Below are positions 42,599-47,505 of a DNA stretch of 53,354 nucleotides, in pieces. The stretch is from the NCBI GenBank assembly GCA_017540825.1, contig JAFYAH010000007.1, forward strand, positions 1 through 53,354, in the 5' to 3' direction. The notes beneath the pieces are model-generated. The model was not told the origin of the DNA, did no database searches, and was given only the letters and a program-made list of their open reading frames with translations. This DNA is from Candidatus Methanomethylophilaceae archaeon (GTDB taxonomy: Archaea; Thermoplasmatota; Thermoplasmata; Methanomassiliicoccales; Methanomethylophilaceae). Made by a program: the position numbers and the translations under genes. Position 1 is the first letter of the stretch. Each line of letters begins with the position of its first letter.

Positions 42599-43024
42599 AT
42601 GTTAATAGGCTATACCGCAGGCGTCTACGACCTGTTCCATATCGGACATCTGAACCTTCTGAAGAACGCCAAAGGGATGTGCGACAAGCTCGTGGTCGGG
42701 GTCACGACGGACGACCTTGTGACGTACAAAGGCAAGCGCGCGCTGATCCCCTTCGAAGACCGCATCGAGATAGTCCGTTCGATAAAGTACGTCGATGCCG
42801 CCGTCCCGCAGTACGACATGGACAAGCTAACAGCCTGCAAGAAGCTGGGCGCCCAGATCCTGTTCGTCGGCGACGACTGGTACGGGACCGAGAAATGGGC
42901 CGACTATGAGAAGGAGTTCAACGAGAATGGGATAAGGATCGTGTACTTCCCGTACACCAAAGGGGTATCGTCCACGATAATATCCAAGACGCTCGGAGTG
43001 GTCAGGGATTGCGATGACAGCTGA
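42599..43024 (+). CDS. Cytidylyltransferase-family nucleotidyltransferase
   Basis: The 141-residue protein has the GVYDLFHIGHL motif (HxGH) at residues 8-18, the RIEIVRSIKYVD segment and KGVSSTIISKTL in place of the RTxGISTT loop. These enzymes activate glycerol-3-phosphate, phosphocholine or similar groups as CDP-esters; in archaea some are FAD synthetases. Next to a LicD-type transferase, a CDP-activated phospho-alcohol for surface glycans is the better guess. Its end overlaps the next gene by 11 bases. Confidence 0.88.
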   Translation: MLIGYTAGVYDLFHIGHLNLLKNAKGMCDKLVVGVTTDDLVTYKGKRALIPFEDRIEIVRSIKYVDAAVPQYDMDKLTACKKLGAQILFVGDDWYGTEKWADYEKEFNENGIRIVYFPYTKGVSSTIISKTLGVVRDCDDS

Positions 43025-44054
43025 CAAGAGATACTGCATGAGTTCTTACCTGGCGTTCCGCTTCATAGAGAACGACGATGCGGACTTCAAGGACGGCATG
43101 CACCATACTCATATCACCCCCGTCCCTGACGAATCCCGGACTCCTGTGCGCTCTGCGGAAGAAATGGATGCGTTCATGGACCGCTACATAAAGGACGTGA
43201 CAAAGGGCAAGCGGCCCGGCGTGCTGCTGTCAGGAGGCATGGACTCGGCGATAGTGGCGTCCTACCTTCCAGGAGCCGATGCGTATACGTTCAGGTTCCT
43301 AGGAGGCGAATTCCAGAATGCGGAGCTGAAGAGGGCGGAGACTTTCGCCGACCATTACGACATGAGGCTGCATTACGTCGATATAAGCTGGGAAACGGTC
43401 GAGAAATATGTGGACAAGGTCATGGAGCGGAAATGCGCCCCTGTCCACTCCATCGAGCCTCAGATACTGTCCGCAGCCCTTCAGGCAAAGGCTGATGGCA
43501 TCAATCTGATGGGGATAGGCGAATCCAGCGACCTTGTGTTCGGCGGGATGGACCAGCTTCTCTCTAGGGACTGGACGGTTGAAGAGTTTCAGCAGAGGTA
43601 TATGTTCACCGATCCATCGAAGGCCCTCAAGGACCCTGTCGACCTTTCTTATGTCTTCGAGCGCTACAGAAACGGCGACAGGATGGATTTCCTCAGATTC
43701 ATGAACGAGGTCTTCTCCATAGAGTCGTCCAGCTCCTACATGAATTCGTTCAATACTGCCGGCATGGAGTACTTCGACCCTTATGCGCATATGAAGATGG
43801 CCGAACCTTTAGACCTGGCGAGAATCCGCAGCGGAGACAGCAAGTACCTGGTGAGAGCCCTGTTCAGAATCAGATACCCCGACCTGGAGGTCCCGGAGAA
43901 GGTCCCGATGCCGCGGCCGGTAGACAGCTATTTCAAGAGCTGGAAAGGGCCTGCCAGGCCGGAATTCCTGGAGGATCTGGACATGGGAACGTTCACTGGA
44001 AATCAGAAGTGGCAGCTGTATTGTCTAGAGCGCTTCCTGGATCGCTTCATGTGA
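43014..44054 (+). CDS. Asparagine-synthase-like PP-loop protein without glutaminase domain
   Basis: The 346-residue protein shows the AsnB synthetase PP-loop (GVLLSGGMDSAIVASYL near residue 70) and the following ETFADHYDMRLHYVDI, then a GIGESSDLVFGGMD block. The N-terminal Ntn glutaminase domain is absent. It may adenylate a carboxylate or amide for an unknown acceptor. It overlaps the nucleotidyltransferase gene and converges on the LicD gene with 11 bases between stops. A later ATG (43038) is possible. Confidence 0.82.
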   Translation: MTADKRYCMSSYLAFRFIENDDADFKDGMHHTHITPVPDESRTPVRSAEEMDAFMDRYIKDVTKGKRPGVLLSGGMDSAIVASYLPGADAYTFRFLGGEFQNAELKRAETFADHYDMRLHYVDISWETVEKYVDKVMERKCAPVHSIEPQILSAALQAKADGINLMGIGESSDLVFGGMDQLLSRDWTVEEFQQRYMFTDPSKALKDPVDLSYVFERYRNGDRMDFLRFMNEVFSIESSSSYMNSFNTAGMEYFDPYAHMKMAEPLDLARIRSGDSKYLVRALFRIRYPDLEVPEKVPMPRPVDSYFKSWKGPARPEFLEDLDMGTFTGNQKWQLYCLERFLDRFM

Positions 44055-44065
44055 GGGCCAAAGCC

Positions 44066-46288
44066 TCATGGGAGCTGCCTGAGCTCTTCCTCTGCCCATT
44101 GGACCTTCTTGGCGACCGCCTTCCTGTACCATATCCTGGATTTGCCCAAGTCCCTGTCGACCCCTCTGCCGTCGCGATACGCTCTTCCCAGCCTGCCCAT
44201 TGCGCCCCCATTGCCGGCATTAGCGTACTTCCTGGCCACTTCGATCATCTCTGAATCGGCTTCCGGCGTGCCGATCTCCCATAGTATGTCGAAGAGCTTG
44301 TTAGGAGCGAGCTTAATCTTGTTCTTTACCGCGAGCCTCATACATTTCGCCGCTTGGTCGAGGTCCTTATCCACGCCGATGCCGTCGCGATACATGCGGG
44401 CCTCGATGACGGACATTGCCGCTCTGGGCCTTCCCTTCAACGAGCGGATGTATTCTAGCGCCTTTTCGTTGCTCTCGGGCGTGTCCATCTCCAGCAATAT
44501 TTCGACGTACTCGGCTCTCGAAGTCTTAGGCCCGCGCCTGATGCTGTTCCTCATAAGCTCTGCGGCCTTAGGCATATCCTTCTCCACGCCTTTCCCCTGA
44601 CGGTACGCTCTGGCCATGCCAGCAGTCAGATATGGATCCCTGGACATGACCCCCGCTTCTCCGAGCCTGACCATGGACTCTAACGACTCGACAGTGCCTA
44701 TATCCCAAAGAATCGCGAAATACTCCCGTCCTGCCCAGTCCAACCCTAGATCTGCAGCCTTCTTCATACACTCGGCAGCCATCTCAAGACTGGGATCGAC
44801 GCCTATGCCGTCGCGATACGCCCTGCCCAGATAGCCGTAGCGGTATGAGCTGTTGGTGTAAAGGCACGAGCAGACTGCAAAGAACGCCGAGGGCGAACGG
44901 CTTCTGTAGGACCATAAGAGGCCATAAAACAAAGCTGCGATATTGCGTATTGAAGTCACCTCGCAGATGCGATCTATGTCTATGCGCGGCCTGCAATGGA
45001 TCCCGTATATCTCGAAGATGAGCTTGTACGCCGACGCCTTCCTGAATCCTGACTCTGCCATCTTGCAGCAGCATCCGTACGAATTCAGCACATCAGCCAA
45101 GTCCACGTCTTTCATGACATCGTCCACGAGAGCCACAGCTTTGCTATAATCAGTCAAAAGCAGCTCATCCAAGACCGCCATATATTCGACGTTGTCCTTC
45201 CGTCTTACAGCCGACCTTCCTTTCCTCAGCAGGACGCCAGGATCGGAGGAATCGGAACGTGCCAGCAACTCGTCAGCCCTCTCGCAGTTCTTGCCTCCGA
45301 GATCGCACAAGATATCGTACATGGTGTTGAGATAGAACGGATCGCTAGACACCATGTCGAACCTTTCCTCCAGCCTTTTCAGCGCCATGCCGGAGTTCTT
45401 CTTGACGCCTATGCCCCTGAACTCCATCAGCATAGCGATCATCTCGTAATGAAGGCCTTCGTTAGAGGTGACGTGCTTGTAGAGCAGGGACATAGATCTG
45501 TCGTATTCGGCCTCCATGCTCACCTTGTTCTTCCTGATTATGTCGATTCCTTTGGCCGTACAATATCTTACAGCCTCGTTATGGCTGACATGGGAGCCTC
45601 TCCTGAAAAGAGGGATGTCGTAGGAGCTGCCGAACTGGAGGCTCAACACGTATTCAGGATCGTTCGGTATGTATGCGTCGACATCGCCCAGCCTGACCTT
45701 CTTCAGCGGGTATATGCGATCATAAGGGATTCCGGATAGACCGTAATTCCCGTCATAGGGATTGCAAATTTTCGTCGATATGTACCTGTTGACCCCTCCT
45801 GGCTGATTGTACGACTTGAAGAGCACCGCCTCCATCGTCTTGCTCAGCTGGGTCTTATGATAAGCCAGGCCGACCTCGCGCATTATGAAGAACTGCCTTC
45901 TGCATTGAACCTCGTCCAGGTTGCTGCGGGTCTCTATGGCAGGAAGTATGTCTATGAGAGCAGGAACTCCCGATTTCCTGAACTTATGGAGCCATTTGGG
46001 CACAGTGACAGAATACTTGCTGCCGGAAATGACGTCCTCCAGTTTCTTAAGATCCTCAGACGTCATCACTATGTCTATATCGTCGTCCCAAGGGATGTAG
46101 CCGCCGTGCCTCACCGCTCCGATGAGACACCCTCCGTAAAGAAAATACGAAATTCCCTCTTTCTCGCATATTTCGTTCAGCTCCCCGAGCAAAGCTGATA
46201 CCAGCTTCTGCGCCGCGTAGGTGCCTTGATCCTGTTTCAAAGGATGAGCATCGAAGAAACTCCTGATTATGGGCAGACGGTCGTTCAT
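44066..46288 (-). CDS. LicD-family transferase with C-terminal Sel1-like repeats
   Basis: The 740-residue protein opens with a LicD nucleotidyltransferase-fold domain: [20 protein letters not shown] with DIDIVM, whose Asp residues bind metal. LicD enzymes attach phosphocholine or similar phospho-groups to glycans. From about residue 280 the rest is alpha-helical with several Sel1-type units ([20 protein letters not shown] and relatives). The GC content is lower and codon use is looser than in neighbours, a sign of transfer. [12 protein letters not shown] is chosen as start; longer starts pass through the promoter. Confidence 0.88.
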
Positions 46289-46358: not shown

Positions 46359-47505
46359 TTAGTTTTCTTTAATCTTTTCATGATGACCGCCAGAGTCCGG
46401 ACCATGGGCTTGCGGCTTTTGTCTCTTCTTGCGGCGCTTCCTGCGACCGGAAGCCTTTGCCTTCGGCGCGGCGTTGACTGCGACAGAGGATCCTGAGACC
46501 GGATCTTTCGCTTCCAGCTCGGCGATGCGCCTCTGGGCCGCATGATGCTCCTCCAAAAGGGCGGTGAACATCTCCAGCATGTGGCCCGGCACCGAGTCCA
46601 GGGCGTCGAGCCTGTCCACCAGGAACTCCACTGCAGGGAAGAAGGTCTTCCAGTCCATCGCTTTATGAGGCTCTGGAGACGGGGCGTTATAGACCCAGGT
46701 CACCAGGTTGGAGCGATGCGTTATCCCGTACATCGGGTCTATCGACAGATGCCTGCACAGCCTGATGAAATAGCGGTTGTAGTCGACGGCGCTGGCGACG
46801 TTCTCCATTATGACGTACCTGTTCTCCTTATGCTCCTTGATTATGTCCAGGATGTAGTCGGGGTCCTTGAGGAGCGGAGAGAGGTACCCTTTCCTCATAT
46901 AGCCTGGATATCTGGTCGAGAGGGTGAGGCAGAGCTGAGGATTGATGGCCACGACCGTGCAGCCGATCCCGATGGCGGACGAAGCCAATATGGAAGCGGT
47001 CCCGCCGGACGATGACGAATAGAATACGATGTCGGGTTCTTCGATCCCCGATGCCGAGCAGACGGCTAGAATCAGCTTCCCCAGGGACTCCCACATGGGC
47101 GAGCCGTCTGTCCCCCCCCCCCGCTTTCCCGCCGAACCAGCCGTATCTTATGCCGTACAGGTAGGCCATTGGGTCGTCCACGCACAGGACGCTGGAATCC
47201 GTCTCGTCAGTGTACTTCCACCTGCTGAAGCGCGGACCCTCGTTGCGACCGTTGCCGTATGCCCCGGGAGTGAGCGAGACCAGGATCCTCCTGCTTCCTG
47301 ATCCGGACTTGTGGAAGCACATGTGGAAGTCGATGCCGTCGAAGCTGGAAACATATGCCCCGGTGCAAATCGGGCTCTTCCCGTCCCATTCCTGCTCTGC
47401 GCACCCCTTTAACCAGACGGCTTCGGATGCCTGAAGCAGCGGAACGGAGCTCTTCGCTGTCTTTCCCAATACGACGCTCGGCCTGCTCATAGACGCCTGG
47501 GCCAT
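46359..47505 (-). pseudogene. Alpha/beta-hydrolase-like gene, out of frame at an 11-base C tract (possibly phase-variable)
   Basis: Two overlapping frames make one protein. 47505 down to the tract gives MAQASMSRPSVV... to MAYLYGIRYGWFGGKAG; after it the other frame gives TDGSPMWESLGKLILAV, then IVFYSSSSGGTA, a nucleophile elbow, and VVAINPQ. The join is a run of 11 C (11 G in the coding strand) at 47112-47122; 10 or 13 would restore a product of about 381 residues. The C-terminus is a coiled coil and a Lys/Arg-rich tail. It is either a slipped-strand ON/OFF switch (read OFF here) or a homopolymer sequencing error. It precedes licD on the same strand. Confidence 0.75.
47112..47122. repeat. Homopolymer tract C11
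   Basis: Eleven consecutive C bases inside the hydrolase-like gene, exactly where its frame is lost. Tracts of this length are prone to slippage in replication and also to sequencing error. Confidence 0.9.

Follow-up and report, generated by a model that had tools for sequence, protein, structure and literature searches.

The window, by which we mean the whole stretch of 53,354 nucleotides analysed here, comes from a methanogen, probably of the order Methanomassiliicoccales, whose genome encodes McrA and PylS, which bears out the archaeal host assumed in an earlier sequence-only reading of this DNA. Its longest homopolymer is a run of 11 C at 47112..47122, which that reading had singled out and which stands as G11, a slippage-prone site, on the coding (minus) strand of the gene that it divides; the second-longest G/C run in the window is a C8 at 24390. 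The N-terminal half of this glycan-associated gene (47123..47505, minus strand, frame A, 127 aa) ends in GIRYGWFGGK, and frame A stays open up to the tract, then continues through about 90 codons of unrelated sequence to a stop. The C-terminal half (46359..47111, minus strand, frame B) contains a YSSSSGGTA motif and a Lys/Arg-rich tail, and its listed open reading frame begins at an internal ATG at 47096. Inspection of the frames showed that the two halves do lie in different frames and that 10 or 13 bases would unite them, as had been proposed; read in frame, the tract would encode glycines in a loop.

Both halves align contiguously to one uninterrupted protein, L037 of the congener G029, with 45% identity for the N-terminal and 42% for the C-terminal half, and the position of the tract in this alignment is the loop between a shared GWFGG motif and the next helix. 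The differences from L037 are concentrated at third codon positions in the N-terminal half (0.40/0.37/0.65 at positions 1/2/3) as well as in the C-terminal one (0.49/0.32/0.66), indicating that both evolved as coding sequence. A contingency locus is recognised by a gene that is otherwise intact in its OFF state, by a repeat in a coding or control region that is able to slip and so alter expression, by a repeat length that is variable among cells or strains, and by a phenotype that changes reversibly. In the window gene both halves are conserved, and the search for other inactivating mutations, which the sequence-only reading had named as a sign against a switch, yielded no further stop or frameshift in 1.15 kb; the G11 is intragenic, and a change of one base shifts the frame. 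Judged by its assembled sequence, the window gene is in the OFF state.

Chance was ruled out as the origin of the tract by the run-length distribution and by Markov expectations, the expected number of G/C runs of at least 11 in the window being about 0.0008, 0.036 and 0.10 under fifth-, third- and first-order models, respectively. The genome of the window has 10 G/C runs of at least 9 and only 3 of exactly 8. Genome-wide, the first-order model gives about 4.4 runs of at least 11 versus 6 observed, and this model fits poorly, given the scarcity of runs of 7-8.

The next gene on the same strand, 70 nt downstream, encodes a protein with a LicD-family phosphotransferase domain and Sel1 repeats (44066..46288, minus strand; PF04991, E 7e-23, 82.3 bits against a curated cut-off of 22.6; PF08238, E 1e-21), so that the reported adjacency to LicD was found to be correct. 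In G029, a first domain resembling the window gene is fused to LicD in a single protein (LicD E 3e-28). Two further genes lie on the plus strand: that of an asparagine-synthase-like protein (43014..44054; PF00733, E 1e-12) and that of a TagD-like cytidylyltransferase (42599..43024; PF01467, E 4e-20), whose TIGR01518 score of 92.9 bits is below the cut-off of 165.4. The C-terminal half of the window gene has local similarity, around its SSSSGG motif, to the XcbB/CpsF family, with a score against XcbB_CpsF_sero (NF033892) of 20.9 bits (E 2e-4), the curated cut-off being 125 bits. The homologues L037 and L039 score 18.9 and 23.8 bits, also below this cut-off, and L038 gave no NF033892 match. The window protein appears to be related to the XcbB/CpsF family rather than to be a member of it. 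A structure model of L037 was weak (mean pLDDT 56; best PDB match E 1.7e-3; matches of the alpha/beta-hydrolase-like kind only) and was left aside as evidence of function. From the LicD linkage and fusion, the TagD-like neighbour and the sub-threshold XcbB/CpsF match, we infer a plausible role in a phosphate-containing surface glycan; the designation as a surface-glycan gene, a weaker point of the sequence-only reading, has its basis in this match and in the LicD and TagD-like neighbours. The gene is rare, being found in 2 of 99 other relatives, and a wider homologue scan of genome contigs, a single run with a two-sequence alignment, returned one locus, in a Clostridiales MAG (26% identity).

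G tracts and mismatch repair in the genus

Neither MutS (PF00488) nor NucS (PF01939) was found in any of the 31 genomes of the genus; the controls were positive in 11 of 14 and 7 of 14 cases, respectively. Long G runs are present in 55 of the 60 relatives searched, with a range of 0 to 26 per genome. Of the 130 tracts listed in 11 genomes, 128 were analysed, two at contig ends of G010 being left out, and genome G024, with its 26 runs, is outside this sample. The commonest length in the sample is 11 (49 tracts), followed by 10 (31), 12 (22), 9 (17) and 13 (6), and lengths of 14, 18 and 23 occur once each; the G23 run (L073:3002, G027) is located, out of frame, within the gene of a probably secreted protein. 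Between genomes G019 and G030, a G9 in the former versus a G11 in the latter is the sole difference across 811 aligned columns, and at a second locus the same two genomes differ by two bases (lengths of 13 and 11) at 97.3% identity; G003 (locus L067) and G013 differ by one base (lengths of 11 and 12) at 99.5% identity. The lack of MutS and NucS, the many G runs and these length differences between near-identical sequences together make slippage credible. Length variation between genomes is thus seen at other tracts of the genus. The sequence-only reading had advised looking for the tract in relatives, and the outcome was divided: many similar tracts occur in the genus, but the closest homologue has none, as the L037 domain contains no G or C run longer than 4, and an argument from a conserved switch is therefore lacking for the window gene.

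A custom script with hand-chosen thresholds classified the 128 tracts as intergenic (70), leader (28), coding or within a called gene (28), or edge (2). The script mistook the window tract for an intergenic one and L079 for a frameshift within a coding region, although L079 occupies a promoter position ahead of an ABC-ATPase gene; among its 28 leader calls, L167 has no secretion-like start, and L192 and L195 are 64-65 nt from the start codon. Of the 10 tracts in the genome of the window (G000), the script assigned 7 to intergenic DNA, the window tract wrongly included, and inspection by eye gave 6. Tracts directly upstream of a TATA-like box were observed in four species (C10-C12; L079:3002, L098:3000, L172:955 and L178:2498), and the genes behind these boxes seem to be versions of a single ABC-transporter ATPase gene.

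Among the coding tracts, those in three N6/N4 DNA methyltransferase genes of congeners (L160:2502, L168:2498 and L169:5492), in the gene of an LRR_5 surface protein (L074) and in an AAA-ATPase-like gene with a PD-(D/E)XK end (L194) are out of frame, and that in the gene of a congener's Dam-type methyltransferase (L071:3002) is in frame. Three tandem PKD genes of G021 (L162:2502, 3826 and 5136; the first was scanned by Pfam) each have a G11-12 that immediately precedes the C-terminal membrane anchor; it is in frame in the third gene and out of frame in the other two, as if toggling anchored and released forms. The targets of the congener coding tracts, methyltransferases and surface proteins, are classic contingency classes. 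In the genome of the window, a G11 (L029:5944, G000:C8) is found in an AAA-ATPase-like/PDDEXK_9 gene, a shortened relative of the L194 gene, that has its middle part missing and stands beside a longer copy; since this gene looks degraded and most tracts of the genome are intergenic, neutral expansion seems to be common there. A GMP-synthase-like gene of the same genome has a C9 at its 3' end (L028:3221, G000:C2), which apparently lengthens the C terminus.

A leader element before surface-protein genes of congeners

In five congeners, 26 distinct leaders follow one plan, consisting of an AT-rich stretch, G9-14, 35-52 nt with a C-rich stretch and a complementary Shine-Dalgarno sequence, and then the ATG (L097:3934-15749; L096:2997 and 3285; L143-L153; L072, L075, L081 and L082). 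The set was obtained with a separate pattern and includes L082, an edge case of the classifier. By eye, a secretion-like N-terminus was recognised in all 26 open reading frames, and 20 of the 21 that are complete in the retrieved DNA share one type of terminal membrane anchor; only an ORF of 94 aa departs from this. The strand preference of leader tracts in the 128-tract set is 28 G-sense versus 1 C-sense. A loose G-sense pattern matched in 7 of the 31 genus genomes, among them G004, whose match has no C-rich partner and was left out of the leader set, and its C-sense control matched in 4 of 31, at 4 separate places. A stricter pattern was found in 11 of 102 family genomes; five of these lie outside the genus, and among the five only G046 has the full plan by eye. 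The genome of the window has no such leader.

According to folding calculations, the mean unpaired probability of the Shine-Dalgarno sequence rises from 0.10 at G9 to 0.45 at G14 in a model without G-quadruplexes. Its exposure rose by more than 0.3 in 11 of 25 leaders, and not in the remaining 14, compared with 1 of 34 ordinary leaders fitted with an artificial tract, which gives some support to the hypothesis that the leader may act as a sensor of tract length. Under this folding model, translation would be low for tracts of up to about 11 and rise for those of about 13 or longer. An inverted repeat upstream of the leader tracts was considered and rejected: stems of at least 6 occur in 3 of 25, and shuffles gave a mean of 1.0 and a maximum of 5. 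An Rfam search at five of the loci matched only tRNAs and no other family.

Interpretation of the window tract

From these results, we lean somewhat towards the hypothesis that the window tract is a contingency (phase-variation) site in a glycan-modification gene, assembled in its OFF state. Replication slippage on G11 would add or remove one base, the change would stay unrepaired without MutS or NucS, and the population would become a mix of ON cells, with an in-frame tract, and OFF cells with the G11 as assembled. In-frame lengths would yield the whole protein and other lengths an early stop, and the glycine loop encoded by the tract would tolerate one codon more or less. The ON product would be an alpha/beta-hydrolase-like, XcbB/CpsF-related protein that acts on a surface glycan in concert with the neighbouring LicD phosphotransferase. 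The switching of the window tract itself, the glycan action of the protein and the selection for switching are what we infer. The switch proposed in the sequence-only reading thereby retains its main supports, namely halves that can be joined, a gene free of other inactivating mutations, linkage to LicD, an archaeal host from a genus without known mismatch repair and length-variable tracts elsewhere in that genus, but the tract-free closest homologue counts against it.

Since most tracts of the genome of the window are intergenic, the main rival is neutral slippage, by which G runs expand wherever they are tolerated in cells without mismatch repair, and a dispensable, perhaps recently acquired gene has started to decay with no selected switch. 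The absence of MutS and NucS, the share of intergenic tracts (70 of the 128 sampled, and 6-7 of 10 in G000), the rarity of the window gene and the loss of the middle part from the AAA-ATPase-like tract gene of G000 all agree with such decay. Against it stand the 1.15 kb without other damage and the equal conservation of both halves, the concentration of congener coding tracts on methyltransferases and surface proteins, and the leader tracts, whose strand bias and tie to one type of surface protein are not expected from neutral drift. On this evidence we regard neutral slippage as possible but rather unlikely.

Two other explanations seem to us improbable, the second marginally more so. The true tract may be in frame and the gene ON, the assembled length being a consensus error; homopolymers are error-prone and the genome of the window is a draft of 73 contigs, but tracts of the same size occur in the single-contig congeners G007, G014 and G030, no other length is as frequent in the sample as G11, and a corrected tract would still be a slippage-prone run near 10. 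Alternatively, slippage of the transcript or the ribosome on G11 might yield a constant in-frame fraction, making the tract a recoding site instead of a genetic switch, which could coexist with the other explanations. Long homopolymers favour transcriptional slippage as well. In the available part of a frameshift survey, recoding efficiency correlates with the length of poly-A runs in a gene cluster with archaeal members (PMC3711429). Against such recoding stand the homologue L037, which has no slippery run at the position of the tract, and the tract lengths in the genus, which vary and include in-frame cases (L071, the third gene of L162, and L086).

Slippage-based phase variation is known from bacteria. 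In Haemophilus influenzae, the phase-variable lic1 locus contains licD, and its tetranucleotide repeats lie in licA, which is accompanied by the licBCD genes. The parallel with lic1 drawn in the sequence-only reading holds as a functional analogy through the linkage to licD, but not for the repeat, which is a homopolymer here, in a gene neighbouring licD and not in licD, and in an archaeon rather than a bacterium; the window locus is thus not of the lic1 type. The poly-G/C contingency loci of Campylobacter are closer, as, in the portions of the reports available, they are numerous in each genome, intragenic as well as intergenic, and have surface structures among their targets (PMC8355987, PMC6321876). 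The present case differs from them in its archaeal host, in that switching is inferred and in the genus-wide absence of both known mismatch-repair nucleases, and the congeners add a leader in which C-rich and Shine-Dalgarno partners separate the tract from the start codon. In Helicobacter pylori, as far as the accessible text describes it, a variable G-repeat in the mRNA leader of tlpB-hp0102 and the RNA RepG provide graded control of a surface-glycan gene (PMC8295292). This repeat resembles the leader element of the congeners, not the window tract, and the congener leaders differ in carrying C-rich partners of their own.

For archaea, Orsi et al. in 2010 analysed the homopolymeric tracts that coding genes contain in 18 archaea and 81 bacteria, and the signal in the available sections is mostly one of short poly-A/T of up to 7 bases (PMC2831843). 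The consulted part of a 2025 review leaves the archaeal distribution of phase variation to be charted by a future extension of surveys (PMC11868660), and that of a 2026 review of methyltransferases describes phase-variable enzymes with bacterial examples (PMC13076061). The available portions of two Methanomassiliicoccales genome papers (PMC5011839, PMC7883539) deal with adhesins and, in one of them, with methyltransferase genes on a mobile element, and make no mention of homopolymers. In a non-exhaustive search of the open-access literature, with subscription papers outside its scope, no account of an archaeon with phase variation by slippage came up.

We are evenly divided on the wider hypothesis that a genus in which the two known mismatch-repair systems are missing maintains a repertoire of poly-G contingency loci across the genome. 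Frame switches would lie in DNA methyltransferases, in the membrane anchors of surface proteins, in AAA-ATPase-like genes and in the glycan gene of the window, and the repertoire would also include a dedicated 5'-leader in which the length of the G tract would vie with the Shine-Dalgarno sequence for the C-rich segments, thereby setting the translation of a family of large surface proteins. If true, it would represent archaeal slippage-based phase variation with a length sensor at the RNA level. The many G runs in surface-protein and DNA-methylation genes of related archaea suggest that random on/off switching, as in bacteria, may occur in them. The question of archaeal phase variation would become testable in a methanogen genus that has many G tracts on such genes. 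Poly-G switching could account for surface variation among methane producers, and, if it does take place, some apparent pseudogenes of methanogens would be genes that are switched off.
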